Source: Sporichthyaceae bacterium (GTDB lineage: Bacteria > Actinomycetota > Actinomycetes > JAKEEW01). Taken from it: a DNA stretch of 33,285 bases. A program made the translations under genes and the position numbers. The stretch spans positions 1-33,285 of the forward strand of contig JAKEEW010000051.1 in assembly GCA_022616375.1 (NCBI GenBank). Direction: 5' to 3'. A model generated the notes under the pieces. That model was not told the DNA's origin. It worked only from the letters and a program-made list of their open reading frames with translations, and searched no databases. Of this stretch, positions 1-32,497 are shown in pieces (the stretch's first letter is position 1; the number at the start of each line of letters is the position of its first letter).

Positions 1-6
1 AGGAGG

Positions 7-31
7 AGTCGATAGTGGAGCTATGGCGACT
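7..31. other. Left-edge intergenic DNA with a small inverted repeat
   Basis: The first 97 bases lie downstream of the carbamate kinase stop and I see no convincing gene in them. Bases 7-15 and 21-31 can pair (AGTCG-ATAG with CTAT-gg-CGACT) around a 5-base loop with a two-base bulge. This could be the terminator stem of a gene left of the window or of the carbamate kinase, but it has no T-tract, so the role is open. Confidence 0.25.
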
Positions 32-97
32 CTCGACAACGCAGCCGGTCGTCGCCTGGGCGGCGATCCGCGCCGCCGACGACTTGGGAGACACACC

Positions 98-1036: not shown

Positions 1037-1107
1037 GGCAGTGACTCTAGGTCGCGGCACCGGGCCTGACATGGGCGGGTCTTGCCCATCCCAGGATTCG
1101 ATGATCG

Positions 1108-3153: not shown

Positions 3154-3543
3154 CTAACCGACCCGGTGACCGGCCACCCGAAGCGCATTGACGGCCAGCC
3201 GGACGTCCCCGTCCCGGACCAGCACGTAGTCGGTCGTGAACGTGGACAGCGCGTACACCGCAACCTTCGCGGCCACCAGTGGGGTGAGCAGCGAGTCCAG
3301 GATGCCGACCAAGCTGGTGTCCAGCGGCCCCTCGATCTTGAAGGCGCGCCAGCCCCGCTCGACATCCGCGCCGGCCGGGACGTCGGACGCGCGGCACACC
3401 ACGGTGACCGCGTCCTGGTCGGCGGTCACCGAGTACAGCGGAGTCCCCACCCGATGGCGGGCCAGCTCCGCATCGGCGGGCAGCCGGCAGACCGCCATCT
3501 CGTCCTCGAGGAGTGCCACGTGCAGGTTGGGGGGCAGCAGCAT
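3154..3543 (-). CDS. ACT domain-containing protein
   Basis: A 129-residue cytoplasmic protein whose C-terminal half (about 66-128) is an ACT-type fold. The stretches RAFKIEGPLDTSLVGILDSL and AVYALSTFTTDYVLV are characteristic of the stand-alone ACT proteins related to CASTOR-type amino-acid sensors and to the regulatory tail of aspartate kinase. The N-terminal half (LPADAELARHRVGTPLYSVT and following) matches the companion domain usually seen in these proteins. ATG 3543 is preceded by CAGGAGAGG at good spacing, which decides the start. The likely role is small-ligand binding, perhaps an amino acid; no catalytic motif is visible. It follows hyuB on the same strand after 118 bases, but an inverted repeat lies in that gap, so co-transcription is uncertain. 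Confidence 0.75.
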   Translation of the reverse strand: MLLPPNLHVALLEDEMAVCRLPADAELARHRVGTPLYSVTADQDAVTVVCRASDVPAGADVERGWRAFKIEGPLDTSLVGILDSLLTPLVAAKVAVYALSTFTTDYVLVRDGDVRLAVNALRVAGHRVG

Positions 3544-3569
3544 GGACGGATCCTCTCCTGTTCCGGCCC

Positions 3570-3644
3570 GATCATTGCACGCGGCGCGCCCCAATCATCA
3601 CCCGATATAGACCAGTTTGCGGCGCAGCGCAGCGCGCAATGATC
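3570..3644. other. Inverted repeat between hyuB and the ACT-domain gene
   Basis: GATCATTGC at 3570-3578 is the perfect reverse complement of GCAATGATC at 3636-3644; the arms are 57 bases apart. The spacing is too long for an ordinary terminator hairpin. The positions just upstream of the ACT-gene start and just downstream of the hyuB stop would suit two half-sites of a DNA-binding protein. Confidence 0.4.
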
Positions 3645-5542: not shown

Positions 5543-7596
5543 CGGGTCACCACCAGGTTGGTGTAGTCGTCCACCGCGGCGGTGAAGCCGGGATGGATCG
5601 GCACGGTCGAGCCGAACTCCTCGATCACCGCCGGGCCGGCGACCAGATCGCCGGGGGCCAGCCGAGCCCGGTCGTAGCTGGGCACGTCGGCCCACTCGTC
5701 GAACCGCACCGGACGGATGCCGATCAGCGCCCGTTCGAGCCGGCCGTCGCCGCGCTCCGCCGCGACCAGCGCCGGCCGGGTGATCGGCCCGATCCCGGTC
5801 ACCCGCAGGTTGACCCACTCGACCGGGTGGCGCTGCGACTGGTCGCGGTAGCAGTAGCCGTACAACCGCTCGTGCGCATCGTGGAACGCGGCGAGCACGG
5901 TTGCGGCGAAGGATCCGTCCACCGGGCCGGCCGGGGCATCCACCCTGACCTCGAACGCCTGGCCGTAGTAGCGCAGGTCGGCCGAGCGCACCAGCCGCTG
6001 CGCATCCGGGCCGAAGCCCTCCCGATCCAGCGCTGCCGCGGCCTGTGCGGCCAGCTCCTCGTACGCCTTCGCGGTCGCGTCCAGGTCCAGCTCGTCGGCC
6101 CGGCTCACCCTGGTCCGCACGTAGTCGTTGCGGACGTCGACGGTCAGCAACCCGAACGCGCTGACCGTGCCGGGATCCCGCGGCACCAGCACACCGCGCA
6201 GCCCGAGAATGTCCACCAGTCGGCAGGCCAGCAGCGAGCCGGAGCCGCCGAACGTGGTGAGCATGAACTCGCGGACGTCCAGACCGCGCTTGACCGTGAC
6301 CTGGCGGATCGCGTTGGCCTGGTTCCAGGCGAAGATCTCCAGGATGCCGTCCGCGACCCGGTCCGGATCCATTCCCAGCTGCCCGGCCAGCGCCGCCAGC
6401 CCGGCCTCCGCGGCGGCCACGTCCAGCGGGATCTCGCCGCCGAGCAGGTGCGGCGGGATCCGGCCCAGCGCCACGCAGGCGTCGGTCACGGTCGGCTCGG
6501 TGCCGCCTTTGCGGTAGCACAGCGGTCCCGGGTCGGCCCCGGCCGAGCGCGGGCCGACCTTGAGCGTGCCCTCCGGGGAGACCGCGGCGATCGAGCCGCC
6601 GCCGGCTCCTACCGTGACCACGTCGATCATCGGAATCCGGGTCGGGTAGCGCCCGACCTGCCCCTCGGTGGTGACCGACGGCTGCCCGCCGACGATGACC
6701 GAGACATCGGTCGAGGTGCCGCCGCCGTCCAGGGTCAGCACCGAGTCGTAGCCGGCCACCGAGGCGACCAAGGCGGCACCGAGTGCACCGGCGGCCGGGC
6801 CGGACAGCACGGTCGTGATCGGCTGGTGCACGACCTCGGTCGCGGACAGCACGCCACCGTTGGACTTCATCACGTAGAACGGCAGGCCCTCGCGCTCGGC
6901 GTCGAGCCGGTCCCTGATCCCGGCCACATAGGCGGCGATCCGCGGCTTGACCGCGGCGTCGACCAGCGTGGTCATGGACCGCTCGTACTCCCGGTATTCC
7001 GGCAGCACCTCGCAAGACAGCGAGACCACGGCCTGCGGATGCTCGCGGGCCAGCACCTCACGCATGGCCAGCTCATGCGCCGGGTTCGCATAGGAATGCA
7101 GCAGGCACACCCCGATCGTGCTGATGCCGCGCCGGTGGAACGCCCGGGCGACGGCCTCGGCCTGCTCGGTGTCGAACGGGCGCACCTCGGCACCGGCGTG
7201 GTCGAGCCGCCCCGGCACGGTGCTCACCCGGTGCACCGGCACGATCCGCGGTGGCTTGACCCAGAAGTAAGAGTTGCCGTATCCGTCCGGCACCGCCTGC
7301 CGGGCGATCTCGAGCACGAACTCGAAGCCCTCGGTGGTGATGAAACCGAGCTCGCCGATATCGTCTTCGAGCAACTGGTTGGTGGCCACCGTGGTGCCGT
7401 GCGAGATCGCCTCGACCGCGTCGTAGTCGAGCCCGAGCAGCCCGAGCACCTTCGCGATCCCGGCCATGAACGCGGTGGCCGGCTCGGCCGGGGTGCTCGC
7501 GGTCTTGGTCGCTAGCAGCCGGCCGGTGGCCGCGTCGAACGCCACGACGTCGGTGAACGTGCCGCCGGTGTCGATCCCGATACGGATGCGCGCCAT
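5539..7596 (-). CDS. hyuA: Hydantoinase/oxoprolinase A family protein
   Basis: ATP-binding subunit of the HyuAB-type enzyme; the family activates a ring carbonyl with ATP for hydrolysis. It has 685 residues, the usual length. ASKHA-fold motifs are clear: phosphate-1 GIDTGGTFTD (7-16), HGTTVATNQLLE (66-77), MKSNGGVLS (243-251), VLSGPAAG (263-270), phosphate-2 LDGGGTSTDVSV (289-300) and VGAGGGSIA (329-337). The ATG at 7596 places GIDTGGTFTD at residue 7, as is usual in the family; its ribosome site is weak. An upstream in-frame ATG near 7640 would prepend residues encoded by a local direct repeat and is less likely. The gene lies 91 bases downstream of the Hsp70-like gene and is translationally coupled to hyuB. 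Confidence 0.93.
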   Translation of the reverse strand: MARIRIGIDTGGTFTDVVAFDAATGRLLATKTASTPAEPATAFMAGIAKVLGLLGLDYDAVEAISHGTTVATNQLLEDDIGELGFITTEGFEFVLEIARQAVPDGYGNSYFWVKPPRIVPVHRVSTVPGRLDHAGAEVRPFDTEQAEAVARAFHRRGISTIGVCLLHSYANPAHELAMREVLAREHPQAVVSLSCEVLPEYREYERSMTTLVDAAVKPRIAAYVAGIRDRLDAEREGLPFYVMKSNGGVLSATEVVHQPITTVLSGPAAGALGAALVASVAGYDSVLTLDGGGTSTDVSVIVGGQPSVTTEGQVGRYPTRIPMIDVVTVGAGGGSIAAVSPEGTLKVGPRSAGADPGPLCYRKGGTEPTVTDACVALGRIPPHLLGGEIPLDVAAAEAGLAALAGQLGMDPDRVADGILEIFAWNQANAIRQVTVKRGLDVREFMLTTFGGSGSLLACRLVDILGLRGVLVPRDPGTVSAFGLLTVDVRNDYVRTRVSRADELDLDATAKAYEELAAQAAAALDREGFGPDAQRLVRSADLRYYGQAFEVRVDAPAGPVDGSFAATVLAAFHDAHERLYGYCYRDQSQRHPVEWVNLRVTGIGPITRPALVAAERGDGRLERALIGIRPVRFDEWADVPSYDRARLAPGDLVAGPAVIEEFGSTVPIHPGFTAAVDDYTNLVVTR

Positions 7597-9783: not shown

Positions 9784-9809
9784 GACGCCGACGGCGGTGT
9801 GTGTGCGCC

Positions 9810-9815: not shown

Positions 9816-9821
9816 GGAGCC

Positions 9822-12892: not shown

Positions 12893-12898
12893 CGCCGG

Positions 12899-16209: not shown

Positions 16210-16240
16210 GGCGTGCTCTCCCGTTCGTAGCTCTCTCTCG

Positions 16241-16289: not shown

Positions 16290-16315
16290 TCGTTCGGTGC
16301 GGAGATCGGATCAGA

Positions 16316-17269: not shown

Positions 17270-17358
17270 TGCTCGGCCCTCCTTGGCATTTGCCCGTCCG
17301 GGGTGGCCGGGCACGTGCTAAGCGTGCGACTGGCCAATGCCCCTCATCATCGGGGCGA

Positions 17359-17387
17359 CCCCCATGCTTATGAGACAGCATTAGGGG
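17359..17387 (-). promoter_or_regulatory. Operator-like inverted repeat in the IniB-like promoter
   Basis: CCCC-c-ATGCT (17359-17368) and AGCAT-ta-GGGG (17377-17387) form an imperfect palindrome around an 8-base centre. On the minus strand it falls between and over a candidate -35 (TTGCAA, 17388-17393) and -10 (TAAGCA, 17365-17370) with a 17-base spacer. A second small palindrome, GCCCC-N8-GGGGC, follows at 17339-17356. The adjacent LuxR-type regulator is the natural candidate to bind here. Promoter hexamers are weak matches, so the assignment is tentative. Confidence 0.45.
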
Positions 17388-17452
17388 TTGCAAAGCTAGA
17401 TCCCCGGAACATGTTTTCATTGTGCGGTTCCAACCCGGGCGCCGGGCCGAAT

Positions 17453-19853: not shown

Positions 19854-20750
19854 TTATGGGCGCAACGGCGACCTGGCTTGCCGGGTTAGCTCGTCCCGAT
19901 ACCGGTGGTAGAGCTCGACGTTGCGGTCGGCCAGGTGGTCGAACCGCTGCGGCTGGCTGGAGCCGGGGCTCATCGCGCCCATCGCGGTGGCCGGGTCGAG
20001 CCGGGCCGCGACCCAGCCCTCGTGCGTGGTGGCCCGCGCCACGACCTCGGCGATCGGGGTCACGATGAGTGAGTTGCCGAAGTACAGCACGCCGGCCGGA
20101 TCGGTGCCGACCGCGTTGGCGGCAACCACGTAGACGTGATTGTCGTAGGCCCGCGCCCTGGTGGTCAGCTCCCAGATGTCCGCGGAGCGAAGCAGCGCCG
20201 ACGGGCGCAGCAGCACCTCGGCGCCGTGTACCGCCTGGATCCTGGCCAGCTCCGGGTAGTCGCCGTCGAAGCAGATGAACATGCCGATCCTGGCCAGCTC
20301 GGTGTCCACCACGGTCACCGAGTCGCCGGGGGTGACCCAGCCACCGTGGGCCGCGTCCTCACCGGTGTAGAGATGCGTCTTGCGGTAGTTGCCGAGCACC
20401 TCGCCGTCCGGGCCGATCAGCACCGCCGCGTTGTAGACCACGCCCGGTGCCGGGCCGCGCTCGTAGGTGCCAAGGCACACGTGCACCCCCAGCTCGCGAG
20501 CCACCTGCTGGACCGGCTCGGTCAGCGCACCGGGAACCTCGTCGACCAGTCCGTGCAAGGTCTGCGGCGGCACCGCCGGGTCGAAGCCGGTGGTCGCACT
20601 CTCCGGCAGCACTACCAGCTCGGCACCGCTACTGGCCACGCAGCGCTCGATCCAACCGACCGCGTTGTCCACGTTCGCCTTGATCGACGCCGGGGTGAGC
20701 GGACCGGGACGGGCCGCGGTCTGGATCGCCGCTGCGGTGAATGCCCTCAT
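19854..20750 (-). CDS. Nitrilase-superfamily carbon-nitrogen hydrolase
   Basis: A 298-residue amidohydrolase of the nitrilase/N-carbamoylase superfamily. The catalytic triad is complete: Glu50 (VVLPESATTGF), Lys124 (YRKTHLYTGED) and Cys160 (GMFICFDGDYPE). These enzymes cleave C-N bonds in amides, nitriles or N-carbamoyl amines. In this setting an N-carbamoyl amino acid or a simple amide such as oxamate is plausible, but sequence alone cannot choose. The ATG at 20750 overlaps the CoxG stop in ATGA (20747-20750). The TAA stop is followed after one base by the LuxR-type start. It therefore belongs to the molybdenum-hydroxylase operon. Confidence 0.9.
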   Translation of the reverse strand: MRAFTAAAIQTAARPGPLTPASIKANVDNAVGWIERCVASSGAELVVLPESATTGFDPAVPPQTLHGLVDEVPGALTEPVQQVARELGVHVCLGTYERGPAPGVVYNAAVLIGPDGEVLGNYRKTHLYTGEDAAHGGWVTPGDSVTVVDTELARIGMFICFDGDYPELARIQAVHGAEVLLRPSALLRSADIWELTTRARAYDNHVYVVAANAVGTDPAGVLYFGNSLIVTPIAEVVARATTHEGWVAARLDPATAMGAMSPGSSQPQRFDHLADRNVELYHRYRDELTRQARSPLRP

Positions 20751-21457
20751 CTGGCCAGCGTCCACCCGACCAGCACGCCAGTCAACGCGATCAACGCGCC
20801 GATCACCGCGGCCAGCACCAGCGACCAGCCCAGCCCGCCGGAGGTCCGCTCGGCCGCGCCTGGCGCGGTGAACACCGCCCCGACCGGAACCGGCCCGGCG
20901 CCCACCCCAGCCGCGGCCGGCTCGGTGCCGCCGGCCAGCCCGTACCCTGGCCCGGCGCCGGCCGGCAGCCCGCCGGGAACCCCGGCACCGCTCGGGACCA
21001 CGGCCGGTTGCGGCGCCCGACCGGTGAGCACGTCGTTGACCGCGGTGAAGAACTCGCCGGCCATCCGCTTGGACACCCCCGTGAGCACCCGATGCCCGAC
21101 CCCGCCGATCATGCCCCCGACCACCGCGTCGGCGTCGTAACTGAGCAGCGTCTGGTCCGGTCCCTCGGCGTCCAGCCGGACCTGGACGGTGGCGTCCACC
21201 ATGCCGGGACCACCGGCGCCCCTGGCCCGCATGATGAACGAGCCCGGCTCGTCCAGATCGGTGAGCAGCACCGTGCCCTGGTACTGGCCCTTGATCGCGG
21301 CGACTCCGGCGCTGACCGTCATCCGGTACTCGTCAGGTCCGATCGCGACCAGCTGCTCGCAGCCCGGGATGGTCCGGACCAGCACGGCCGGGTCGCGCAG
21401 CGCCGCCCACACGTGCTCGCGCGGGGCGGACAGGGTTGCGGTACCGGTAACCTTCAT
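20747..21457 (-). CDS. CoxG-like SRPBCC protein with C-terminal membrane anchor
   Basis: A 236-residue protein. Residues about 1-150 form the SRPBCC/CoxG fold, starting with KVTGTATLSAPREHVWAALR and including the family segment IPGCEQLVAIGPDEYRMTVS. A Gly/Ala/Pro linker follows, and a single hydrophobic helix closes the protein (about 209-234). In carbon monoxide oxidisers CoxG helps attach the molybdenum enzyme to the inner face of the membrane; a similar anchoring role fits the anchor and the operon. The start ATG has a strong GAGGAG site and overlaps the large-subunit stop by four bases (21454-21457). Confidence 0.88.
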   Translation of the reverse strand: MKVTGTATLSAPREHVWAALRDPAVLVRTIPGCEQLVAIGPDEYRMTVSAGVAAIKGQYQGTVLLTDLDEPGSFIMRARGAGGPGMVDATVQVRLDAEGPDQTLLSYDADAVVGGMIGGVGHRVLTGVSKRMAGEFFTAVNDVLTGRAPQPAVVPSGAGVPGGLPAGAGPGYGLAGGTEPAAAGVGAGPVPVGAVFTAPGAAERTSGGLGWSLVLAAVIGALIALTGVLVGWTLAR

Positions 21458-23877
21458 GCGCTCTCCTCAGGATTGCCGACCTCGGCCCGGCGCAGCGACA
21501 CAACCTTGCCGCGCGCGTGCCTGACCCGCAGGTGATACAGCTCGCTCGGCGAGATCGGCATCCGGCTCAGCACGAACCCCTCGGCATCCTCGATCGCGGA
21601 CGCGAACACGGCCATGCCGGGAATCACCCCGGCCTCGCCGGCGCCCTTGATCCCCAGCGGGTTCAGCGGGGACGGCGTCTCCATGTGGTCGATCTCGACC
21701 CGGGGAACCTCGGTGGCGTAGGGCATCAGGAAGTCCATGAACGAGGCGTTGAGCAGCTGCCCGCTGGCGTCGTAGGCCATCCGCTCGTACAGCGCCCCGC
21801 CGACTCCCTGGGCCACCCCGCCGTGGATCTGACCCTCCAGGATGCGCGGGTTCACCACGTTGCCGCAGTCGTGCACCACGGCGTAGCGCAGCACCCGGAT
21901 ATCCGCGGTCTGTGGATCGGTCTCGACGATCGCGGCGTGCATCCCGGCCGCGAACGTGGAACGCAGCGGCGAGTAGTAGTCGGTCGCCTCCAGGCCCGGC
22001 TCGTCGTCCTCGCCGATCGGCGGCTTGCTGATGTCGCCCTTGGCGAACTGGGTAGCCACTTGCGCGGCCTCGTCGAACGCGTACCGCAGCGGGTTGGCCA
22101 GCACTGCCACGGTCTTCAGCTCGATCGAGGCCTGCGGGTCACCCTTCACCCTGACCACCCCGTCGACGATCTCCAGGTCCGCCGGATCGACCTCCAGTGC
22201 GTCCCCGGCGATCCGTAGCGCCTTGTCCTTCACCGCGCGGGCGGCCAGCGCCACCGCGTTGCCTGACATCACCGCGGCCCGGGAGGCGAACGTGCCGATC
22301 GAGTAGCGGAACCTGCGGGTGTCGCCGGTGACCACCTCGACACTGTCGAACGGCACCCCGAGCTCGTCGGCCACGATCTGCGCGAACGCGGTCTGATGCC
22401 CCTGGCCCTGGCTGGTCAGCCCGGTCGCGACCCGGACCCGGCCGCTCGGCTCGACCAGCACGTGCCCGCCCTCGTACGGCCCGACCCCGGTGCCCTCGAC
22501 ATAGCAGCCGATGCCGATCCCGACCTTGCGGCCCTGCGCCCTGGCCTGCGCCCGGAACGTCTCGAACTCGTCCCAGCCGATCAGCTTCTTCAGCTTCTCC
22601 AGCAGCGCCGGGTAGTCGCCCGAGTCGTAGGTCAGCGGCCGCCCGTCCTGGAACGTCAGGCCCTGCTCGTAGGGCATCTCGTCGGGCTGGATGAAGTTGC
22701 GGGCCCGTACCTCGGCCCGGTCCAGCCCCAGGTAGTCCGCGATCGCGTCCATGGTGCGCTCCATCGCGAAAGCACCCTGCGGCCGGCCGGCCCCACGGTA
22801 CGGGGTGACGATGACCGTGCTGGTGTACAGCGACCAGAACTCGGCCCGGTAGGCCCTGGGTTTGTACGGCCCGAGCAGCTGGGTGGTGGTGATGATCGGC
22901 ACGATCAGGCCGTACGGGATGTAGGCCCCGTTGTCGTGCCAGACCTGCACGTCGAGCCCGAGGATCCGGCCGTCGGCGTCGAACCCTACGTTGACCAGGT
23001 GCTCCTGCTCGCGCTCGTGCGCGCTGGACACGAAGTGCTCGCGCCGGTCCTCGGTCCAGCCGACCGCCCGGCCGAGCCGGCGGGCCGCCCACGGCACCAG
23101 TACCTCTTCCGGCCACGGGTGCACGATCTTCACGCCGAAACCGCCGCCGACGTCCGGGGCGACCACCTCGACCCGGTCCAGCGGCAGGTCGAGCTTGGCG
23201 GCCAAGGCAGCACGCACGCTGGTCGAGGCCTGGGTCGAGGTGTAGATCCGCAGGATCCCGCCTGGGTCCTCGCGCGCTACTACCCCGCGACCCTCGAGCG
23301 GCATCGACGCGGACCGCTCGACCGACAGGCTTAGCAGCAACGTGTGCGGCGCCGCGATGATCTCCTCGCGGGCGTCGCCGCGCTCCTGCACCACGTGTCC
23401 GGCCACGTTGCCCGGCACGTCCGGGTGCACCAGCCGCTCGGCCCGCTTGGCCGCGGCCACCCCGATCACCGCGGGCAGCGGGTCGTAGTCGACCCGGATC
23501 AGCTCGGCCGCGTCCTCGGCCAGGTACCGGTCGGTGGCGACCACCATCGCGACCGCCTCGCCGACGTGGTGGACCAGCTCCTTGGCAAGCGGGTACGCGG
23601 TCTTCGGGTGGGTCAGGCCGGGATGCGGGATCAGCAGCGGCAGCGGCTCGGCGACCCGGCCGTCCAGATCCTCGTAGGTATAGATGGCCAGCACACCGTC
23701 CACCGCGAGCGCGTCGGTGACGTCGATGTCCACGATCCGGGCATGCGCGTGCGGGCTCCGCACGAACGCCGCGGCCAGCGCGTCCCCGGTGAGGTCGTCC
23801 AGGTAGCGGCCGTTGCCGGTGACCAGCCGCGGATCCTCCTTGCGCTGGATCGGGGCGCCGAACAGCCGGGTCGTCAT
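21454..23877 (-). CDS. Xanthine dehydrogenase-family molybdopterin-binding subunit (CoxL-like, not CO dehydrogenase)
   Basis: The 807-residue large catalytic subunit of a molybdenum hydroxylase, which inserts oxygen from water into C-H bonds of heterocycles or aldehydes. It begins with the family pattern GAPIQRKEDPRLVTGNGRYL and contains PDVGGGFGVK (241-250) and a C-terminal GIKGAGEAGVIP with the expected catalytic glutamate. The active-site loop reads PYRGAGRPQGAF (359-370). Form-I CO dehydrogenase has a CSFR sequence with a copper-binding cysteine here, so CO oxidation is unlikely. The ATG at 23877 overlaps the small-subunit stop. With a nucleobase-type permease and HyuAB nearby, an N-heterocycle is the likely substrate; that is inference. 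Confidence 0.93.
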   Translation of the reverse strand: MTTRLFGAPIQRKEDPRLVTGNGRYLDDLTGDALAAAFVRSPHAHARIVDIDVTDALAVDGVLAIYTYEDLDGRVAEPLPLLIPHPGLTHPKTAYPLAKELVHHVGEAVAMVVATDRYLAEDAAELIRVDYDPLPAVIGVAAAKRAERLVHPDVPGNVAGHVVQERGDAREEIIAAPHTLLLSLSVERSASMPLEGRGVVAREDPGGILRIYTSTQASTSVRAALAAKLDLPLDRVEVVAPDVGGGFGVKIVHPWPEEVLVPWAARRLGRAVGWTEDRREHFVSSAHEREQEHLVNVGFDADGRILGLDVQVWHDNGAYIPYGLIVPIITTTQLLGPYKPRAYRAEFWSLYTSTVIVTPYRGAGRPQGAFAMERTMDAIADYLGLDRAEVRARNFIQPDEMPYEQGLTFQDGRPLTYDSGDYPALLEKLKKLIGWDEFETFRAQARAQGRKVGIGIGCYVEGTGVGPYEGGHVLVEPSGRVRVATGLTSQGQGHQTAFAQIVADELGVPFDSVEVVTGDTRRFRYSIGTFASRAAVMSGNAVALAARAVKDKALRIAGDALEVDPADLEIVDGVVRVKGDPQASIELKTVAVLANPLRYAFDEAAQVATQFAKGDISKPPIGEDDEPGLEATDYYSPLRSTFAAGMHAAIVETDPQTADIRVLRYAVVHDCGNVVNPRILEGQIHGGVAQGVGGALYERMAYDASGQLLNASFMDFLMPYATEVPRVEIDHMETPSPLNPLGIKGAGEAGVIPGMAVFASAIEDAEGFVLSRMPISPSELYHLRVRHARGKVVSLRRAEVGNPEESA

Positions 23878-24419
23878 GGCTGTGCCAGTCCGGCCGGGGA
23901 GATCTGGTCGGCCCGGTCGGCCAGCAGCTCGGCTGCCCGGCGCACCGACTTCACGATGTTCTGGTAGCCGGTGCAACGGCACAGGTTGCCCGAGATCGCC
24001 TCGACGATCTCCTTCTCGTCCGGGTCGGGCCGCTCGGCCAGGAACGCCGCGGTGGTGGTCAGGAAGCCGGGCGTGCAGAAGCCGCACTGCAGCCCGTGGC
24101 ACTCCACGAATGCCTGCTGCACCGGATGCAGGGTGCCGTCCGGGTCGGTCAGCCCTTCCACGGTCGTGACCTCGTGGCCGGCCACGGTGACCGCGAGCAG
24201 CAGGCAGGACCGCACCGGTGCGCCGTCCAGCAGGACCGTGCAGCAGCCGCACACGCCGTGCTCGCAGCCGACGTGGGTACCGGTCAGGCCCAGGTCGTGG
24301 CGCAGGAAGTCGGACAGCAACCGGCGCACCGGCACGGTGGCCCGACGGGGCGCGCCGTTCACGGTCAGCGTGACCTCACCGTGCTGCTGGTAGTCGCTTC
24401 GCTCGCTTCGCTCGCTCAC
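23874..24419 (-). CDS. 2Fe-2S subunit of molybdenum hydroxylase (CoxS-like)
   Basis: A 181-residue iron-sulfur subunit passing electrons from the molybdenum site to FAD. The plant-type [2Fe-2S] cysteines are all present (52, 57, 60, 72), as are those of the second cluster (112, 115, 147, 149; QCGFC and CRC). The GTG start overlaps the stop of the FAD subunit in GTGA (24416-24419). The first ten residues (VSERSERSDY) come from a 9-bp tandem repeat and are absent from typical family members, which begin nearer to EVTLTVNG. AAGGGGG about ten bases upstream may be the ribosome site. Confidence 0.92.
   Translation of the reverse strand: MSERSERSDYQQHGEVTLTVNGAPRRATVPVRRLLSDFLRHDLGLTGTHVGCEHGVCGCCTVLLDGAPVRSCLLLAVTVAGHEVTTVEGLTDPDGTLHPVQQAFVECHGLQCGFCTPGFLTTTAAFLAERPDPDEKEIVEAISGNLCRCTGYQNIVKSVRRAAELLADRADQISPAGLAQP
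24394..24419. repeat. 9-bp tandem repeat at the coxS-like start codon
   Basis: TCGCTTCGC occurs at 24394-24402 and 24403-24411, followed by a partial copy to 24419. On the minus strand it forms the first codons of the iron-sulfur subunit (SERSERS) and includes the stop of the preceding gene. Confidence 0.75.
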
Positions 24420-25303
24420 GCCGCCTGTACCCCCTTGGCTCGCCGGGCGGCGATCCGGACCGCCCGCGCGGTGAGCACGCCGACCAGATGCTCGCGGTAT
24501 TCGGCGGTCGCGTGCAGGTCGTCCTCGGCGCGGATCTGCTCCTTGGCCCGCTGGCCGGCCGCGGCCCAGTCGGCCCGACCGATTGGCTGGCCGGCCAGCG
24601 ATTCGGTCAGGTCGAGCACGATCGGGGTCGCCCCGACCGCGAAGTAGGCCGCCATGGCCGAGCCGATCGCCTCGGTCTCGTCCAGGGTGACCGCAGCGGC
24701 CACCCCGCACATCGCGTAGTCGCCGTGCCGGCGGGCCAGCTCCTTGATGGCCAGCCCGGTGCGGCCGGCCGGCACCGGGAAGTAGGCCTCGGTGGCCAGC
24801 TCGCCGGGTCGGATGTCGGACTCGAGCGGGCCGACGAAGAAGTCCGTGGCGGCCACCGTGCGGGAGGTGCCGCCGTACCGGCGCAGCGCCACGCTGCCAC
24901 CGAGCAGTGCGAGCACCGCGGTCAGCTCGCCGGCCGGGTCGGCGTGCACCAGGCTGCCGACCACGGTGCCGCGGTTGCGGATCACCGGATGGGCGACCAG
25001 CCGCAGCGCCTGGTGCAGCAGCGGGAGCACCGCGAACGCGTCCTTGTCCCGCTCCAGCCTGGCGTGCCGGACCAGCGCGCCGACCCGAACCCCGGACGGG
25101 TCGGCGGCGAGCTGGTCCAGCTCGGTGATCCGGTTGATGTCGATCAGGTGCTTGGGTGCGGCCAGCCGCATGTTGAGGATCGGGATCAGGCTCTGCCCCC
25201 CGGCCAGCACCTTCCCGTCCGTGCCGACCTCGGCGAGGACGGCCAGCGCCTCCTCGACCGAGCGCGGCGCGTGGTAACGGAATGGCGGTGGTTTCACCCG
25301 CAC
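24416..25303 (-). CDS. FAD-binding subunit of molybdenum hydroxylase (CoxM-like)
   Basis: A 295-residue flavoprotein subunit of the xanthine-dehydrogenase/CO-dehydrogenase family. It begins with the typical KPPPFRYHAPRSVEEALAVL. FAD-binding motifs are LAGGQSLIPILNMR and RNRGTVVGSLVHADPAGE, and the C-terminal CoxM-type domain is complete. GTG 25303 is favoured because GGAG lies five bases upstream; a GTG two codons later has poorer spacing. It is the first gene of the run FAD subunit, 2Fe-2S subunit, Mo subunit, CoxG, nitrilase, LuxR, where the first five overlap by four bases at every junction. A terminator-like hairpin ends only 29 bases before the start. Confidence 0.92.
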   Translation of the reverse strand: MRVKPPPFRYHAPRSVEEALAVLAEVGTDGKVLAGGQSLIPILNMRLAAPKHLIDINRITELDQLAADPSGVRVGALVRHARLERDKDAFAVLPLLHQALRLVAHPVIRNRGTVVGSLVHADPAGELTAVLALLGGSVALRRYGGTSRTVAATDFFVGPLESDIRPGELATEAYFPVPAGRTGLAIKELARRHGDYAMCGVAAAVTLDETEAIGSAMAAYFAVGATPIVLDLTESLAGQPIGRADWAAAGQRAKEQIRAEDDLHATAEYREHLVGVLTARAVRIAARRAKGVQAA

Positions 25304-25391: not shown

Positions 25392-26791
25392 CTAGCCGGT
25401 CGGCTCGGGTTCCTTGGCCGCCGAGTCCCGCCAGGTCCCGGCTGGTGGTCGTTCGCGGGCCAGGTCGGCCTTCATGTGCTCTGGCGCCAGCCAGCGCAGT
25501 AGATGCCACCCGACCAGCACGACGATGGTGCCGAACGCGATGCCGGACAGCTCGAAGTCGTCGCTGATCTTGTGCGCGACGGGGCCGATGGCCAGGATGA
25601 TGCCAGCGGCGATCGGAACCATATTGATCGGGTTGGCGAAGTCCACCCGTTCTCGCTCCAGATCTTGGCACCGAGCAGTCCGGTCATGCCGTACAGCACC
25701 ACGGTCACGCCGCCGAGCACCCCGTCCGGGGTGGCGCTGACCAGTTCGCCGAACTTCGGACACAGGCCGAACAGGATCGCGACCACGCCGGCGACGTAGT
25801 ACGCCGCGGTCGAGTACACCCTGGTCGCCGCCATCACCCCGATGTTCTCGGCGTAGGTGGTGGTCGGCGAGCCGCCGACACCGGTGGCCACCGCGGTGCC
25901 GACACCGTCGGCGAAGATGGCCCGACCGACCTGATCGTCGAGGTCGGTCTGGGTGATCTCACCGACCGCCTTGACGTGCCCGGTGTTCTCTGCGATCAGC
26001 GCGATCACCGCGGGCAGCACCAGGATGATGGCCGACCACTTGAACTCGGGGCCGTGGAAGTTGGGCAGGTCGAACCACTTCGCGGCCTCTACCGCGTCGA
26101 AGTTGACCCGGTCTCCGGTGACCGCCTCACCCGTCGCCGGGTTGGTGACCGTCAGCGCGCCCGCGGTCTTGTCCAGCACCCAGGACAGCACGAAACCGAA
26201 CACCAACCCGAGCAGGATCGCGATCCGGGCCCAGAACCCACGCAGCATCACAGTCATCAGGAACACCGCGAACATCGTGGCCAGCGCCACCCAGTGGTCC
26301 ACCCACCAGTAGAAGTCCTGGACGACGAACGCCAAGCCAAACCCGATGAGCATGACTACCGCACCGGTCACGGCCGGCGGGAAGACCCGGTGCAGCACGT
26401 CGGGCCCGAGCCGGTGGATGATCAGACCGGCGGCGGCCAGCACCAGGCCGGCGACCAGGATGGCGCCGGTGACTAGCGCATCCGAATCGGACGCGGCTCG
26501 GATCGCGAACACACCACCGACGAAGGAGGCGCTGGTGCCCAGGTAGCTGGGCACCTTGCCGTTGGTAATGAGCAGGAACAGGATCGTGGCAACGCCGGAC
26601 ATCATGATCGCGACGTTCGGGTCGAGCCCCATCACCAGCGGGAAGACGAACGTCGCGCCGAACATCGCGACCACGTGCTGGGCGCCGATACCGACCGTGC
26701 GCGGCCAGGTCAACCGCTCGTCCGGCTTGACTACCTCACCGGGTGGCGGGGTCCGCCCGTCCCCGCCGTACAGCTTCCAACCGAAGGCCAT
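25392..26791 (-). pseudogene. NCS2-family uracil-type permease, frameshifted near its C-terminus
   Basis: Polytopic inner-membrane nucleobase:proton symporter of the NCS2/NAT family. The N-terminal part (from ATG 26791, with AAGGAGCG upstream) is canonical. GGSPTTTYAENIGVMAATRV carries the AENIG motif typical of uracil permeases such as UraA rather than the QN motif of xanthine/urate members. ENTGHVKAVGEIT is also present. After GAKIWSEN the reading frame shifts. The expected continuation (RVDFANPINMVPIAAGIILA, then IGPVAHKI) is encoded in another frame and ends at 25392. Adding one C between 25648 and 25649 restores a single 466-residue protein. As given, translation leaves frame there and stops at 25472 with a 439-residue product that loses its last membrane segment(s). 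A sequencing error is as likely as a real mutation. Confidence 0.88.
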
Positions 26792-26974: not shown

Positions 26975-28669
26975 CTAGATCCCGCGCATCTGGATGACCT
27001 GCAGCGCCAGGGCGAGGTTGAGCCGAAGGTGTGGATCCGCGGTGAACGGTCCGAGCATCCGCTCCAGCTTGCCGATCCGGTAGCGCAGCGTGTTGTAGTG
27101 GTAGTGCAGCACCCGGGCGGTCTCGGCCACGTTCAGATTCGTGTCCAGCAGGACCTGCAGGGTCCGGCGCAGGTCCCGGCTCTCCGCGTCGTCGCCGTCG
27201 GCCAGCGGGCCGAGCGTCTCGCGCACGAACGAGTGCAGCTCGTCGCCATCCGGCACCAGGGAGAGCAGCCGGTAGACGCCGAGCTCGTCGAAGCCCGCAA
27301 CCACCTGGCGCCCATGCATCCGGCGTCCCACCCGCAAGGCCTGTCGGGACTGCTCGTACGCGCCCGGCAGCGCGGCCACGTTGCCGACTACCCGGCTCAC
27401 CCCGACGCTGAACGAGTGCTTGGACGCGGTCAGGTCCGCGGTGACCGTGGCGGCCAGCTGGCGGGCCGCCTCGACCGGGTCGGCCGAGCCGTCGACCAGG
27501 GCGACGACCTCCAGGCTGTATCCGACCACCGCGGTCCGCGGGTCCCTGGCCCGTAACGCCGCCCCCCAGGCCCCGGCCAACCGTTCCTGCGCACGCCGCA
27601 GCTCACCCGCCCTGGCCGATCCGGTGCCGGGCGCGCTGAGCTCGTCCAGCTCGACGACGAGCACCGCAAGCGACCGGTCGATGTCCCAGCCCAGCGAGAC
27701 CGCGTGGGCCAGCACCGACTCGCCTGGGCCACCGCGCCCGGACAGGATGTCGCGCAGGAAGTCGCCCTGGTAGCGGCCCTCCACCGCGGCCACCGCCAGC
27801 TGCTTGGTGATCACCAGCGCGGCCACCGTCGCGGCACGCTCCAGGATCTGCACGTCCTGGCTGGTCAGCTCGCGGTCACCGGGCACCGCCACGATCCGGC
27901 CGTGGTCGAGCGAGCCGGCCACGATCCGCACGACCGCGGTCTCCACGTCGCCGTAGCGGCGCAGCCCGGCCCGCCCGTGCAGCAACGCGGCCAGGTTCGC
28001 CGGCACCTGCCCGGACGCCGCCAGCACCCGGCCGCCCGGATCGGTCACGCACACCGGGCCGCCGAGCAGCCGGACCAGCTCGTCGGTAACCTCCTGCAGC
28101 CCGCCCCCGTCCAGCACGATCTGGACCAGTGCGTGGTGCACCTGCTCGGTCCTGGCCAGCAGCGCCGCCTGCCGGTTCAGGATGTCGGTGAGCACCTGGT
28201 TGATCACGTCGTCGAAGCTGACGTGGTCGGGCAGCTGGATCAGCGGGATGCCGAGCTCGTCGGCGGCGGTCAGCATCGCCGGGGGCAGCTCGTCCAGGTA
28301 GCGGCCGAGCTTGACCGCGACCGCGGCTAACCCGCGGGCATCCAGCTCGGCGAGCAGCGCGACCAGCTGCTCAGGGTTGTTGCGAAGCGGGTAGCCGGTG
28401 GTGAGCAGCAGCTCGTGAGGCTTCACCCAGGGCAGGATGTCGGGCACTTCCATCACGTTGAGCCGCTGCACCAGCCGGCCCAACCCCTCCTTGCCGGCCA
28501 GCAGCGACGAGCCGGCCAGGGAGGACGATTCGAGCACTTCGGCCACGGTAAGCCCGTATCCGAGCACGGCCTGGCCGCCAATCGGCCACCCGGCGGGCGG
28601 TGCAGCTAGGGGACCCCCCTCTGGCAACACCGGCGAACTGCTGGCACCATCGTTGGCAACTTTCCCCAT
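26975..28669 (-). CDS. PucR-family transcriptional regulator
   Basis: A 564-residue regulator with three parts. The N-terminal PucR-type ligand-sensing domain spans about 40-165 (LTVAEVLESSSLAGSSLLAG, then PWVKPHELLLTTGYPL). The middle is a CdaR/GGDEF-like region (about 300-450). The C-terminal PucR helix-turn-helix (about 501-560) contains LLDTNLNVAETARVLHYHYN and TLRYRIGKLE. The family usually controls purine, allantoin or other nitrogen-compound catabolism. ATG 28669 has no ribosome site, but TACCGT ends six bases upstream, so a leaderless transcript is likely. The first 35 residues are outside the conserved domain, so a later start is possible. It is divergent from the DUF2877/FdrA/DUF1116 operon by 80 bases and upstream of the permease, and probably regulates both. 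Confidence 0.92.
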   Translation of the reverse strand: MGKVANDGASSSPVLPEGGPLAAPPAGWPIGGQAVLGYGLTVAEVLESSSLAGSSLLAGKEGLGRLVQRLNVMEVPDILPWVKPHELLLTTGYPLRNNPEQLVALLAELDARGLAAVAVKLGRYLDELPPAMLTAADELGIPLIQLPDHVSFDDVINQVLTDILNRQAALLARTEQVHHALVQIVLDGGGLQEVTDELVRLLGGPVCVTDPGGRVLAASGQVPANLAALLHGRAGLRRYGDVETAVVRIVAGSLDHGRIVAVPGDRELTSQDVQILERAATVAALVITKQLAVAAVEGRYQGDFLRDILSGRGGPGESVLAHAVSLGWDIDRSLAVLVVELDELSAPGTGSARAGELRRAQERLAGAWGAALRARDPRTAVVGYSLEVVALVDGSADPVEAARQLAATVTADLTASKHSFSVGVSRVVGNVAALPGAYEQSRQALRVGRRMHGRQVVAGFDELGVYRLLSLVPDGDELHSFVRETLGPLADGDDAESRDLRRTLQVLLDTNLNVAETARVLHYHYNTLRYRIGKLERMLGPFTADPHLRLNLALALQVIQMRGI

Positions 28670-28749
28670 GTGGTGACGGTACTCGTCTAGTTAGCGTCCC
28701 TACAGTCGGATTGGTAGATCTTTGCCATCATTGGCGCGGGAGGTCTGGC
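28670..28749. promoter_or_regulatory. Divergent promoter region of the pucR-type gene and the DUF2877 operon
   Basis: In 80 bases there is a leftward -10 candidate TACCGT (minus strand, 28676-28681), six bases from the pucR ATG. A rightward -10 candidate, TACAGT (28701-28706), is followed by a leader with a GGGAGGT ribosome site before GTG 28750. An AGATCT palindrome at 28716-28721 lies within the leader and could be part of an operator. The -35 elements are not clear. Confidence 0.45.
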
Positions 28750-29646
28750 GTGACCGCGGTCCTCACCCGCAGCGCACCCGTCGGGGGGGTCGCTGTATCC
28801 GGCGCGGCGAGCACCGCGATTCGCGGTCTGGTAGAGGGGCCGCGCCGTGCGTTGACGTTGCTGGCCGCGTTCCCCTCCGCGGTCTACCTGACCACCGGTG
28901 ACATCACCGTGTTGGCTGCGGTGGCACCCGGTTCGGTCCGGTTGCCATGCGCCGTGGTGATGCCGTCCGCGAGCGATCTGCCGGTCGGCGAGGAGCTGAC
29001 CTCGGACTCCTGGGTCGGCCTCGGCGGGCTCACCCTGGACGGGAAGCGGATCGAGATCACCCAGTGGTGGCGGCCCACGCCACCAGCCCCGCCGCTGTCC
29101 TCCGATGTGCTGGCTCGCGGGCTCGATGCGCTGACCGCCCGGCTGGCGGTGCAGCAGCACCGGCTGCTCCGGGCGATCTCGGACGGGCTACGCCGGCTGG
29201 AGGCCGCGGTGCGGATGCGCGAGCCGGACTCGGCCGCGGATGCCGCGTCGGCACTGATCGGCCTCGGGCCGGGCCTGACCCCTTCGGGTGACGATGTGGT
29301 GGCCGGCTTCCTGGTCGGCCTGCACCACCTGGCCGTGCCGCGCGAGCCGACCCGGACCGGTCAGGCGCTGACCGCGGCTCGGGCGCACGTCCGGGACCGG
29401 ATCGCCGGCCGGATCCTGATCGAGGCCCCGGTGCGGACCACCACGCTGTCCGCCGCGCTGCTCGGCCACGCCGCCCGCGGGCACACCGCGGCCGAGGTGA
29501 CCGCCGTGCTCAACGCGCTGTCCGGGCGACGTCCGCTGTCCCCGGTGCTCATGCGGCTGATGGCGGTGGGTCACAGCTCCGGTTACGACATGGCATGCGG
29601 CATCCTGGCTGCAGGTCGAGCACTGCTCGGCCAGCGGGAGGGTTAG
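28750..29646 (+). CDS. DUF2877 domain-containing protein (YlbF/AllH-like, oxamate carbamoyltransferase component)
   Basis: A 298-residue cytoplasmic protein with the DUF2877 hallmark GLGPGLTPSGDDVVAGFLVG about two thirds along and a C-terminal GHSSGYDMACGI motif. In E. coli the DUF2877 protein YlbF is encoded with FdrA and the DUF1116 protein YlbE. To my knowledge this trio has been identified as the long-missing oxamate carbamoyltransferase of allantoin breakdown (carbamoyl-oxamate, i.e. oxalurate, plus phosphate giving oxamate plus carbamoyl phosphate). GTG 28750 has a good GGGAGGT site. It is the first gene of a three-gene operon; its TAG shares one base with the GTG of fdrA. The division of labour between the three proteins is not evident from sequence. 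Confidence 0.88.
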   Translation: MTAVLTRSAPVGGVAVSGAASTAIRGLVEGPRRALTLLAAFPSAVYLTTGDITVLAAVAPGSVRLPCAVVMPSASDLPVGEELTSDSWVGLGGLTLDGKRIEITQWWRPTPPAPPLSSDVLARGLDALTARLAVQQHRLLRAISDGLRRLEAAVRMREPDSAADAASALIGLGPGLTPSGDDVVAGFLVGLHHLAVPREPTRTGQALTAARAHVRDRIAGRILIEAPVRTTTLSAALLGHAARGHTAAEVTAVLNALSGRRPLSPVLMRLMAVGHSSGYDMACGILAAGRALLGQREG

Positions 29647-31106
29647 TGCCCCAGGAAGGCCAGGCACGGCACGTCGAGATCCGTCGCGGTGCCTATCGGG
29701 ACTCGGTCGCGCTCATGCAGGTAAGTCGTACCGTCGCGGCCGTTCCCGGCGTGTCCAGTGCCATGATCGCCATGGCCACCGAGCTCAACCTCGACCTGAT
29801 CCAGGACCTCGGCTTCGACCGGCCGGACGGCGCCGGACCCAACGACATGGTGGTGGCGATCGCGGCCGCCGACCAGGCGGGGGTTGACCGGGCTCTGACC
29901 GCGGTGGACACCGTGCTCTCCGCCGGTCCGAGTAGGCGGGCCGGGGCCGGTCCGGTGGCCGAGGCGGCCGCGCCGCACACCGTGTCTGCCGCCGCGCAGC
30001 AGCATCCCGATGCCGAGCTGGCGCTCATCTCGGTGCCGGGGCCGCACGCGTTCACCGAGGCGATGGATGCGCTCGAGTCCGGCATGTCGGTTCTGGTGTT
30101 CAGCGACAACGTTCCGGTCGAGCTGGAGAACCGGCTCAAGGACGAGGCCACCCGCCGCGGCCTGCTCGTGATGGGCCCGGACTGCGGCACCGCCCACGTC
30201 GGCGGGCTCGGACTCGGGTTCGCCAACGAGGTCCGGCCAGGGCCGGTCGGGATCGTGGCCGCCTCCGGTACCGGCGCCCAGCAGCTGATGTGCCTGCTGG
30301 ACGCGGCCGGCGTCGGGATCAGCCAGTGCGTTGGCGTGGGCGGCCGGGACCTGTCCGCCGCGGTCGGTGGCCGCTCGACCCGGCCCGCGCTGCGCCAGCT
30401 GGACGAAGACCCGGCCACCGACCTGATCGCGGTGATCTCCAAGCCGCCGGACCCGCAGGTCGCTCAACAGCTGCAGGCGGAGGTGGCCGGCCTGGCCACG
30501 CCGGTGGTCCTCGGCCTGCTCGGAGCCGGATCCGGTGATCTCACCTCGCTGGCCGAGCGGTTGCTCGATCAGCTCGGCGTCACGGTGCCCGTCTGGCCGA
30601 CCTGGACACCGGGACGGGCCAGACCGGCCAGGGCCGGCGTGCTGCGCGGGCTGTACTGCGGCGGCACGCTCGCGGCCGAGGCGCACGCGATCGCCGGCGC
30701 GACTCTGGGCGAGGTCGCGGTGGACGACCTGAGCGCGTCCGGCCACCTGGTGGTGGATTTCGGCGCGGACCAGTTTACGCTCGGCCGGGCCCACCCGATG
30801 CTCGACCCGGCGCTGCGCAACCAACGGCTGGCCACCGGCCTGGCCGACCCGCGGGTCGGCGTGGTCCTGCTGGATGTGGTGCTCGGGCACGGCAGCCACC
30901 CGGATCCCGCCGGCGAGCTGGCCGCGACGCTGGCCGCGGCACCGCACGACGCACCCGCGGTGGTGGTCGCGCTGGTGGGCACCCAGGCCGATCCGCAGGA
31001 CATGGACAGCCAGGCCAAGAAACTCACCGACGCCGGCGCCTACGTGTTCGCCGCGCATGCCCAGGCAGTCCGGCACGCGCTCGCGCTTCTTGGAGCAGCC
31101 GAGTGA
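29646..31106 (+). CDS. fdrA: FdrA family protein (acyl-CoA synthetase-like)
   Basis: A 486-residue protein related to the alpha subunit of succinyl-CoA synthetase. Family motifs are intact: LLVMGPDCGTAHVGGLGLGF in the central domain, VAASGTGAQQLMCLLDAAGV, LRGLYCGGTLAAEA at the start of the C-terminal half, and HPMLDPALRN and VVLLDVVLGHGSHPDPAGE near the end. It may be a phosphoryl- or carbamoyl-handling component of the oxamate carbamoyltransferase system. GTG 29646 with GGGAGGG upstream is the start; it overlaps the DUF2877 stop by one base. The TGA overlaps the next GTG in GTGA (31103-31106), so all three proteins are translationally coupled. Confidence 0.92.
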   Translation: MPQEGQARHVEIRRGAYRDSVALMQVSRTVAAVPGVSSAMIAMATELNLDLIQDLGFDRPDGAGPNDMVVAIAAADQAGVDRALTAVDTVLSAGPSRRAGAGPVAEAAAPHTVSAAAQQHPDAELALISVPGPHAFTEAMDALESGMSVLVFSDNVPVELENRLKDEATRRGLLVMGPDCGTAHVGGLGLGFANEVRPGPVGIVAASGTGAQQLMCLLDAAGVGISQCVGVGGRDLSAAVGGRSTRPALRQLDEDPATDLIAVISKPPDPQVAQQLQAEVAGLATPVVLGLLGAGSGDLTSLAERLLDQLGVTVPVWPTWTPGRARPARAGVLRGLYCGGTLAAEAHAIAGATLGEVAVDDLSASGHLVVDFGADQFTLGRAHPMLDPALRNQRLATGLADPRVGVVLLDVVLGHGSHPDPAGELAATLAAAPHDAPAVVVALVGTQADPQDMDSQAKKLTDAGAYVFAAHAQAVRHALALLGAAE

Positions 31107-32497
31107 GCCCAACCACCGTAATCACCGCCGGCGCCGATTTCCTCGCCGACGCGGTCGCTGCCCAGGCCGGGACCGTGCATCGGGTGGACTGGCAGCCCCC
31201 GGCGGCCGGCCTGGAAGGTCCACTCGCCCGGATCATGGCCGACCAGCGCCGGGCCGAGGCCAACGCGGTCGCGATCGACCGGGTGCTGGCCAGCACCGCT
31301 CAGCTGGTCGACGTGGCTCCGGCCAGGGAAGTGCTCCAGCTCGAGCACGGCGCTTTCCTGCACGCCGGCCCGCCGATCGACTGGGCGCGTGCGTCTGGGC
31401 CGCTGCGTGGTGCGCTGATCGGCGCGATGCTGTTCGAGGGTCTGTCCGGCGCGCCCGAGCAGGCCGAGCGCCAGCTGGCCGCCGGGGCCGGGATCTGGTT
31501 GGACAGTTGCCACCACCACGGCGCGGTCGGCCCGATGGCGGGCGTGGTCAGCCCGTCGATGTGGATGTTCGTGCTGGAGGATCCGGTGAGTGGCCGGCGG
31601 GCGTACTGCTCGCTCAACGAGGGCCTGGGCAAGGTGTTGCGGTACGGCGCCTACGCGCCCGCGGTGATCGAGCGGCTTGACTGGATGTCGACCGTGCTCG
31701 GTCCGACGCTGCGGGACGCGATCCGCCAGCACGGACCGTTGGACATCACCGCGATCACCGGCCAGATGGTCCAGATGGGCGACGAGGGCCACAACCGCAA
31801 CCGGGCCGGCACGCTGATGCTGCTGCGCGACCTGATGCCGACCATCGCCGAGGTCGGCGCGTCCAGCACCGACATCGCCGAGGTGGCCAAGTTCATCGGC
31901 GGCAACGACCACTTCTTCCTCAACCTGGTGATGCCGGCGTGCAAGCTGGCCATGGATGCCGGCCGCGGCGTGCCCGGCTCCTCGCTGGTGGTGGCGATCG
32001 CCCGCAACGGCACCGACGTCGGGATCCAGGTGTCAGGGACCGGCGACCAATGGTTCACCGCACCGGCGACCGTGCCCGACGGGCTCTACCTCGGCTCGTA
32101 CGGTCCGGCGGACGCCAACCCGGACATCGGCGACTCCTCCATCACCGAGACGGCCGGGCTCGGCGGATTCGCGATGGCCGCGGCCCCGGCAATCGTGCAG
32201 TTCGTCGGCGGCACCCCGGCGGACGCGCTGGCCGCGACCCTGCGGATGTACGAGATCACGCTCGCCGAGCACCCGCGCTTCCAGATCCCGGCGCTCGGGT
32301 TCCGCGGCACCCCGGTCGGGATCGACATCACCAAGGTGGTCAGGACCGGGATCCTGCCCCAGATCAACACCGGGATGGCCGGCCGGGTCGCCGGCACCGG
32401 CCAGGTCGGCGCCGGACTGGTCCGCCCGCCGATGGACTGCTTCCAGACCGCACTGCACGGCCTCGCCGAGCTCGCCCCCACCGTCACCGCCGGCTAG
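31103..32497 (+). CDS. DUF1116 domain-containing protein (YlbE/AllG-like)
   Basis: A 464-residue protein of the YlbE/YahG family. Diagnostic segments are DSCHHHGAVGPMAGVVSPSM, AYCSLNEGLGKVLRYGAYAP, TGQMVQMGDEGHNRNRAGTL, GGNDHFFLNLVMPACKLAMD and NPDIGDSSITETAGLGGFAM. The three consecutive histidines and the conserved GDEGHNRN and GGNDHFF segments look catalytic or metal-binding, but I cannot assign them. It is the last gene of the DUF2877-FdrA-DUF1116 operon. With carbamate kinase (98-1036) it would convert a carbamoylated product to ATP, ammonia and carbon dioxide. Confidence 0.92.
   Translation: MSPTTVITAGADFLADAVAAQAGTVHRVDWQPPAAGLEGPLARIMADQRRAEANAVAIDRVLASTAQLVDVAPAREVLQLEHGAFLHAGPPIDWARASGPLRGALIGAMLFEGLSGAPEQAERQLAAGAGIWLDSCHHHGAVGPMAGVVSPSMWMFVLEDPVSGRRAYCSLNEGLGKVLRYGAYAPAVIERLDWMSTVLGPTLRDAIRQHGPLDITAITGQMVQMGDEGHNRNRAGTLMLLRDLMPTIAEVGASSTDIAEVAKFIGGNDHFFLNLVMPACKLAMDAGRGVPGSSLVVAIARNGTDVGIQVSGTGDQWFTAPATVPDGLYLGSYGPADANPDIGDSSITETAGLGGFAMAAAPAIVQFVGGTPADALAATLRMYEITLAEHPRFQIPALGFRGTPVGIDITKVVRTGILPQINTGMAGRVAGTGQVGAGLVRPPMDCFQTALHGLAELAPTVTAG

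Follow-up and report, generated by a model that had tools for sequence, protein, structure and literature searches.

The stretch of DNA considered here, called the window throughout, is a complete contig of 33,285 nt (G000:C797) from a Sporichthyaceae bacterium, and it carries three adjoining genes whose products resemble AllH, AllF and AllG, the subunits of oxamate carbamoyltransferase (OXTCase), in E. coli the enzyme that completes allantoin breakdown. This trio is probably an AllFGH-type carbamoyltransferase that serves oxidative pyrimidine catabolism rather than allantoin catabolism and splits ureidomalonate. Such a role would be new for the AllFGH enzyme family, and no paper proposing a link between the trio and barbiturase was found in the open-licence literature, judged by titles and the first part of abstracts.

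The carbamoyltransferase trio and its regulator

An earlier model reading of the same letters, the original prediction, had described the trio as complete, coupled by 1- and 4-base overlaps and divergent from a PucR gene, and the coordinates and Pfam matches agree in every respect. The AllH-like subunit (28750..29646, + strand; PF11392, 85.7 bits against a Pfam cut-off of 25) begins at a GTG codon preceded by GGGAGG, a ribosome-binding-like site, and its gene shares one base (29646) with that of the AllF/FdrA-like subunit (29646..31106, +). The latter has a succinyl-CoA-synthetase-alpha-like fold with a Ligase_CoA domain (PF00549, 107.5 bits, cut-off 24.5); its top PDB match is 3dmy 'Protein fdrA', and it scores 396.7 bits with the NCBIfam FdrA model NF004760, under that model's cut-off of 433. 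Four bases (31103-31106) overlap with the gene for the AllG-like subunit (31103..32497, +; PF06545, DUF1116, 318.3 bits, cut-off 27), a relative of PDB entry 3clq. All three OXTCase subunit families are thereby present together, PF11392 and PF06545 above cut-off and the third as an FdrA-type protein.

The PucR-type regulator (26975..28669, - strand; PF07905, HTH_30, GGDEF_2) lies 80 bp away. An operator search recovered GTTGGCAA in 34 of 55 PucR-trio intergenic stretches, with the window site at 28640-28672. Because this site overlies the first PucR codons, conservation of the protein explains the motif equally well, and it was set aside as a PucR operator. An Rfam scan of the window gave no match. 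A second AllG candidate elsewhere in the genome (G000:C879) was dropped, as it scored 24.8 bits, below cut-off, and its 10.4 kb held no tblastn match to the window proteins.

Association with the barbiturase family

Among 246 genomes of the same class, AllG (PF06545) occurs in 65 and the barbiturase family (PF09663) in 62, with 56 genomes holding both, nine AllG alone, six PF09663 alone and 175 neither (Fisher p 1e-38, uncorrected for kinship). Both lie on one contig in 33 of these 56 genomes, and in 26 they are within 50 kb of one another. A sample of 60 class genomes gives the same picture: PF09663 is found in 16 of the 18 genomes with AllG vs 2 of the 42 without it (p 1.4e-10). Counted by family, 11 of the 33 families in this sample combine both in one genome, two have AllG only, two PF09663 only and 18 neither (p 2.6e-5).

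The AllG phylogeny is organized along similar lines. Of the 41 loci listed, 39 offered an AllG stretch that could be used and two did not; the 39 and the window make a tree of 40 rows. The barbiturase-linked rows, the window AllG included, fall on one side of a branch with 100/100 support, the allantoin pair stands separately and the cyanurate rows appear in two places.

The original prediction had called for a comparison of actinobacterial gene neighbourhoods, and this comparison ties the trio homologues to barbiturase, carbamate kinase (CK) and a block of molybdenum hydroxylase (Mo-hydroxylase), NCS2 and PucR genes. In most of the 18 AllG genomes of the 60-genome sample the AllHFG genes diverge from PucR, NCS2 and Mo-hydroxylase genes, followed by CoxG, a slot for an amidase, HyuAB, CaiB and CK. 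The order AllHFG, then divergently PucR, NCS2, the medium, small and large Mo-hydroxylase subunits, CoxG, amidase, HyuAB, CK and barbiturase, is found on a single contig in G157, G201 and G236, and a more spread version of the cluster in G044, G029, G018, G015, G027 and G047. For G201 and G236, tblastn gave no match to AllH. CaiB lies near CK or barbiturase in relatives: in G157 it precedes CK and in G201 it follows barbiturase; none was seen in the G236 cluster. HyuA and HyuB are present in every cluster read from end to end. A scan of named genomes confirmed 137 AllG relatives, of which the 80 best, nearly all from Actinomycetota to judge by their titles, were kept. Fifty of these loci extend 9 kb or more upstream, and tblastn matches there number 50 for AllF, 46 for PucR, 40 for each of the Mo-hydroxylase subunits, 39 for NCS2, 33 for AllH and 27 for CoxG. 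This set is not independent of the class genomes, as some genomes appear common to both.

Four loci revealed a gene for a ring-opening amidohydrolase of about 385 residues directly after CK. CK adjoins the barbiturase gene in 18 of the 20 barbiturase-type loci that are readable on both sides, G205 and L174 being the exceptions; four loci where the gene sits at a contig or locus edge were left out of this count (C564 of the source genome itself, G013, L157 and L181). The cluster of Embleya includes a gene for cytosine deaminase (580 bits, cut-off 483), to which the Pseudonocardia locus L181 has a tblastn match.

Carbamate kinase at the contig edge

As had been predicted, the CK gene lies about 28 kb from the trio at the other end of the cluster (98..1060, -; start codon uncertain at the contig edge). 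It passes the catabolic CK model TIGR00746 (arcC) narrowly, at 359 bits vs a cut-off of 358.25. Its distance from the trio follows from its place at the far cluster end in relatives and from a block of about 12 kb inserted here, which is absent in the single-contig clusters of G157, G201 and G236. Since the window is a complete contig, the next neighbour of CK is cut off.

The barbiturase-family gene (PF09663) of the source genome is found at the end of another contig, C564. The first 35 bases of the window are the last 35 of C564, and the orientation matches what the conserved order predicts. The overlap was nonetheless rejected as proof of linkage, since the 35-mer recurs in this genome, with 20 matches at up to 3 mismatches, 16 of them exact and several at contig ends. 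The window end (1..103, +) is half of a palindromic repeat of about 160 bp, the other half of which ends C564 with the 35 exact bases shared; a complete copy of the inverted repeat, with the 35-mer inside it, occurs in L116. With sites at window 1-103, G000:C564 4690-4795 and L116, the repeat is MITE-like. From the conserved order we infer that C797 and C564 are physically linked in the source genome.

The ring opened by the amidohydrolase

According to Peat 2013 (PMC3758960), five positions set the two enzymes apart: cyanuric acid hydrolase has R, T, R, G and G there, and barbiturase (group VI) has Asn195, His321, Lys325, Val345 and Ser/Ala346 in AtzD numbering. The C564 protein reads N-H-K-V-A, the barbiturase set. 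In 34 of the 56 co-occurring genomes these positions were examined, and 33 have NHKVA or NHKVS and one NYKVS. Among the six PF09663 genomes without AllG, G013 and G205 have NHKVA, G030 RTRGG, G092 both RTRGG and NHKGG, G099 NHKGG and G121 NPKGG. The Embleya homologue has 5hwe 'Barbiturase' as its top PDB match, at 595 bits vs 324 for the best cyanurate enzyme, and scores 543.5 bits with TIGR02714.

A proposed route from uracil to malonyl-CoA

Gene content, conserved order, co-occurrence and the signature residues are observed. From them we infer all catalytic steps and the regulation, with the substrate of AllFGH assigned by chemical homology with oxalurate. The product of barbiturase is 3-oxo-3-ureidopropanoate, or ureidomalonate, according to PMC3758960. 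This compound is N-carbamoyl-malonamate, one CH2 longer than oxalurate, which is N-carbamoyl-oxamate.

The first step would be import of uracil (or thymine or cytosine) by the NCS2 nucleobase permease (25472..26791, -; PF00860; top NCBIfam score RutG at 322 bits, below cut-off). The Mo-hydroxylase would then convert uracil into barbiturate. It comprises an FAD or medium subunit (24416..25300, -; PF00941, PF03450), a 2Fe-2S or small subunit (23874..24365, -; PF01799, PF00111) and a large subunit with MoCoBD domains (21454..23880, -). The enzyme, whose large subunit has quinoline 2-oxidoreductase as top PDB match and is without a CSFR motif, is a candidate uracil/thymine dehydrogenase, the name given to the first enzyme of the oxidative pyrimidine pathway; to our knowledge no gene has been assigned to it. 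The C564 barbiturase would open the barbiturate ring to ureidomalonate, from which AllFGH, by analogy with its action on oxalurate, would form malonamate and carbamoyl phosphate at the expense of phosphate. CK would turn carbamoyl phosphate into ATP, CO2 and ammonia. A carbon-nitrogen hydrolase (19854..20765, -; PF00795), in which the catalytic Glu-Lys-Cys triad is present, is a candidate malonamate amidohydrolase that would release malonate by deamination. In G201 the same slot is taken by a gene of the Amidase family, which would be compatible with hydrolysis of malonamate. Lastly, the CaiB/BaiF CoA-transferase (1108..2355, -; PF02515, 375 bits), a candidate malonate CoA-transferase, would yield malonyl-CoA, and PucR would control the whole cluster.

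If correct, the proposal provides a cluster that occurs in many Actinomycetes families with a function open to testing, and offers candidate genes for uracil oxidation as well as for an energy-conserving alternative to ureidomalonase. It also puts in question the naming of the cluster's proteins as OXTCase, CO dehydrogenase and cyanuric acid hydrolase.

Other readings of the cluster

The trio could instead be a true OXTCase whose oxalurate comes from allantoin, by way of allantoin genes situated at another place in the genome. Pfam indeed labels the trio families as OXTCase subunits, and a genome-wide search, which the original prediction had recommended, did find allantoin genes on contig C65, namely allantoinase (576.8 bits, cut-off 357.85) and allantoicase (TIGR02961, 385.4 bits, cut-off 277.9) together with malate synthase. 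What the search did not find in the source genome is ureidoglycolate dehydrogenase (AllD, TIGR03175), which is required for oxalurate. The C65 gene set without an AllD match fits a route from allantoin to glyoxylate, not oxalurate, as the allantoicase route ends in ureidoglycolate and glyoxylate. The trio is likewise not linked to oxalurate-yielding genes locally: no allCDE gene product, and no allantoinase, M20 amidohydrolase or ureidoglycolate dehydrogenase as already remarked in the original prediction, is found in a Pfam scan of 19 window proteins, a subset of the window reading frames. Nor does the case named there as opposing it, a full allantoin pathway under the same type of PucR regulator, appear: besides the missing AllD, the 12,749 of the 20,248 bases of C65 that were read contain no relative of the window cluster proteins, PucR included. 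Allantoinase over cut-off is also commoner with AllG in the 60-genome sample (13 of 18 genomes vs 11 of 42 without, p 0.0014), but the barbiturase association there is far stronger, four genomes (G005, G019, G022 and G027) have AllG and PF09663 with no allantoinase over cut-off, and the allantoin-linked AllGs form a separate clade. An allantoin-derived substrate is therefore improbable. The earlier suggestion that the substrate may come from another source is supported, although by the tie to barbiturase, CK and Mo-hydroxylase and not by the genes missing from the window.

Oxalurate might also be made within the cluster, the Mo-hydroxylase converting hydantoin to parabanate and HyuAB opening this to oxalurate for a genuine OXTCase. 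HyuA and HyuB are nearest to N-methylhydantoinase in the PDB, and parabanate induces oxamate transcarbamylase in a Streptococcus, according to the title of a 1965 paper. This scheme, at first the leading one, gave way after the amidohydrolase adjoining CK had been recognized as ring-opening and then counted; it leaves the near-constant barbiturase, the cytosine deaminase and CaiB unexplained, and we hold it to be quite as doubtful as an allantoin origin. Unlikely, if a little less so, is that the pathway is right and the substrate of the trio another N-carbamoyl compound, for example a product of HyuAB or the methyl homologue that thymine would yield. HyuAB, present in all end-to-end clusters and without a role in our proposal, would speak for such a compound, whereas barbiturase and CK already fix the substrate and the product. 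Least credible of all is a cluster that degrades triazines by means of a cyanuric acid hydrolase. The model NF052395 'cyanuric acid amidohydrolase' matches the C564 protein above cut-off and plasmid relatives with the RTRGG signature carry such clusters, yet the plasmid enzymes with RTRGG obtain better scores with this model (577 and 544 bits), the source genome's own and the linked homologues bear the barbiturase signature, and Mo-hydroxylase and cytosine deaminase suit pyrimidines.

Several observations do weigh against a ureidomalonate-splitting trio. The genome holds an allantoin route as well, and its assembly has a contamination of 5.77%. CK and barbiturase are on separate contigs here, and the end common to both is a repeat. 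NF052395 takes the C564 protein with 477 bits against a cut-off of 360. The tree label for barbiturase stands, for some rows, for genome-level co-occurrence. Nine AllG genomes are without PF09663, most of them with a divergent AllG; G205 has a full-signature barbiturase with neither AllG nor an adjoining CK, and L174 a barbiturase without adjoining CK. A second type of ring-opening enzyme, HyuAB, is left without a role in the proposed route. Finally, the Rhodococcus pathway described in PMC3758960 employs a ureidomalonase that forms malonate and urea, rather than a carbamoyltransferase.

Remaining genes of the window

On the minus strand the order is NCS2, the three Mo-hydroxylase subunits, CoxG, carbon-nitrogen hydrolase, inserted block, HyuA, HyuB, ACT, CaiB and CK. 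The reading frame of the NCS2 permease breaks near 25650 (region 25470-25660), its last 50-60 or so residues lying in another frame by comparison with two homologues; either the assembly is wrong there or the gene is damaged. The CoxG/SRPBCC protein is encoded at 20747..21457 (-; PF06240). HyuA, the A subunit of an ATP-dependent hydantoinase (5539..7590, -; PF01968, PF05378), and HyuB, the B subunit (3662..5521, -; PF02538), each have N-methylhydantoinase 7hk5 as top PDB match. Between HyuA and the carbon-nitrogen hydrolase, the block of about 12 kb (7688-19852) that the compact clusters of relatives lack contains a LuxR-type gene, GTPase-like genes (assigned by eye) and a pair of Hsp70-like genes whose N-terminal parts resemble each other. 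An ACT_7-domain protein (3154..3594, -; PF13840) had no tblastn match in the other annotated loci, so that its membership of the cluster is not supported.

Comparison with known systems

E. coli AllFGH interconverts oxalurate plus phosphate and oxamate plus carbamoyl phosphate, as described in PMC11326118. The cluster described here resembles this AllFGH/AllK system in its three subunit families, its CK and carbamoyl phosphate as the predicted product. It differs in that its AllG is about 46% identical and belongs to another clade, and in that barbiturase and Mo-hydroxylase genes take the place of adjoining allCDE genes. The E. coli enzyme acts on oxalurate, whereas ureidomalonate is the predicted substrate here, by analogy. 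The E. coli locus (L238, in the order fdrA-ylbE-ylbF-ybcF) and that of Enterococcus (L242) are allantoin versions. With the oxidative pyrimidine pathway of Rhodococcus, as described in PMC3758960, the likeness lies in the barbiturase signature and the first two predicted intermediates; there ureidomalonase hydrolyses, while the trio and CK would conserve energy as ATP.

The Mo-hydroxylase invites a comparison of its own. Its large subunit scores 1477 bits with NCBIfam NF040766 (aerobic carbon monoxide (CO) dehydrogenase large subunit, group 5), well over the cut-off of 950. CSFR is the active-site motif of the form I CO dehydrogenase large subunit, and the protein has PYRGAGR instead and is nearest to quinoline 2-oxidoreductase. 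To judge from these motifs, CO oxidation may be over-predicted in genomes carrying such a cluster.

Plasmid-borne cyanurate clusters of Leclercia (L120), Aminobacter (L041) and Klebsiella (L245) share a ring-opening amidohydrolase, FdrA, DUF1116 and CK with the cluster, DUF2877 being annotated in L120 and L041. They differ in the RTRGG signature of L120 and L041, and no Mo-hydroxylase is annotated in the stretches read. The ring-opening enzyme of L245 has the same protein accession as that of L041; L245 carries atzF, and only a short hypothetical gene precedes its fdrA. If carboxybiuret and phosphate were converted to allophanate, the AtzF substrate, and carbamoyl phosphate, atzF would be predicted beside the trio and CK, as is the case in L245.

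Other gene sets extend the family. Plasmid pTC1 of Paenarthrobacter aurescens TC1 (L244) has a truncated DUF1116-like stretch followed by a 'carbamoyl phosphate synthetase-like' gene between atzB and atzC, apparently the remnant of a triazine cluster. In Caballeronia and Azospirillum (L241, L243), a lone divergent DUF1116 gene, with no FdrA annotated, accompanies Mo-hydroxylase, SRPBCC, hpxZ and amidase genes, possibly another ureide pathway. An E. coli IncF plasmid (L042) and Peptoclostridium (L240) combine the trio and CK with a cysteine hydrolase and a cytosine or xanthine permease, with no ring-opening amidohydrolase annotated. In nitrifiers, allFGHK lies beside triuret and biuret genes, an arrangement that PMC12625717 reads as oxalurate degradation.

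Given the plasmid cyanurate versions, one with an allophanate hydrolase, the trio with CK looks swappable. We lean slightly towards a wider proposal, in which AllFGH and CK are a swappable module for the phosphorolysis of acyl-ureas, the actinobacterial cluster yields ATP and 'CO dehydrogenase group 5' is uracil/thymine dehydrogenase. The module would convert R-CO-NH-CO-NH2 and phosphate into R-CO-NH2 and carbamoyl phosphate. The genes for this carbamoyltransferase were not identified until 2024; the enzyme would then be a general tool of ureide breakdown, pollutants such as cyanuric acid included, acting on oxalurate in the allantoin clusters, on ureidomalonate in the actinobacterial barbiturate cluster and on carboxybiuret in the plasmid cyanurate clusters.

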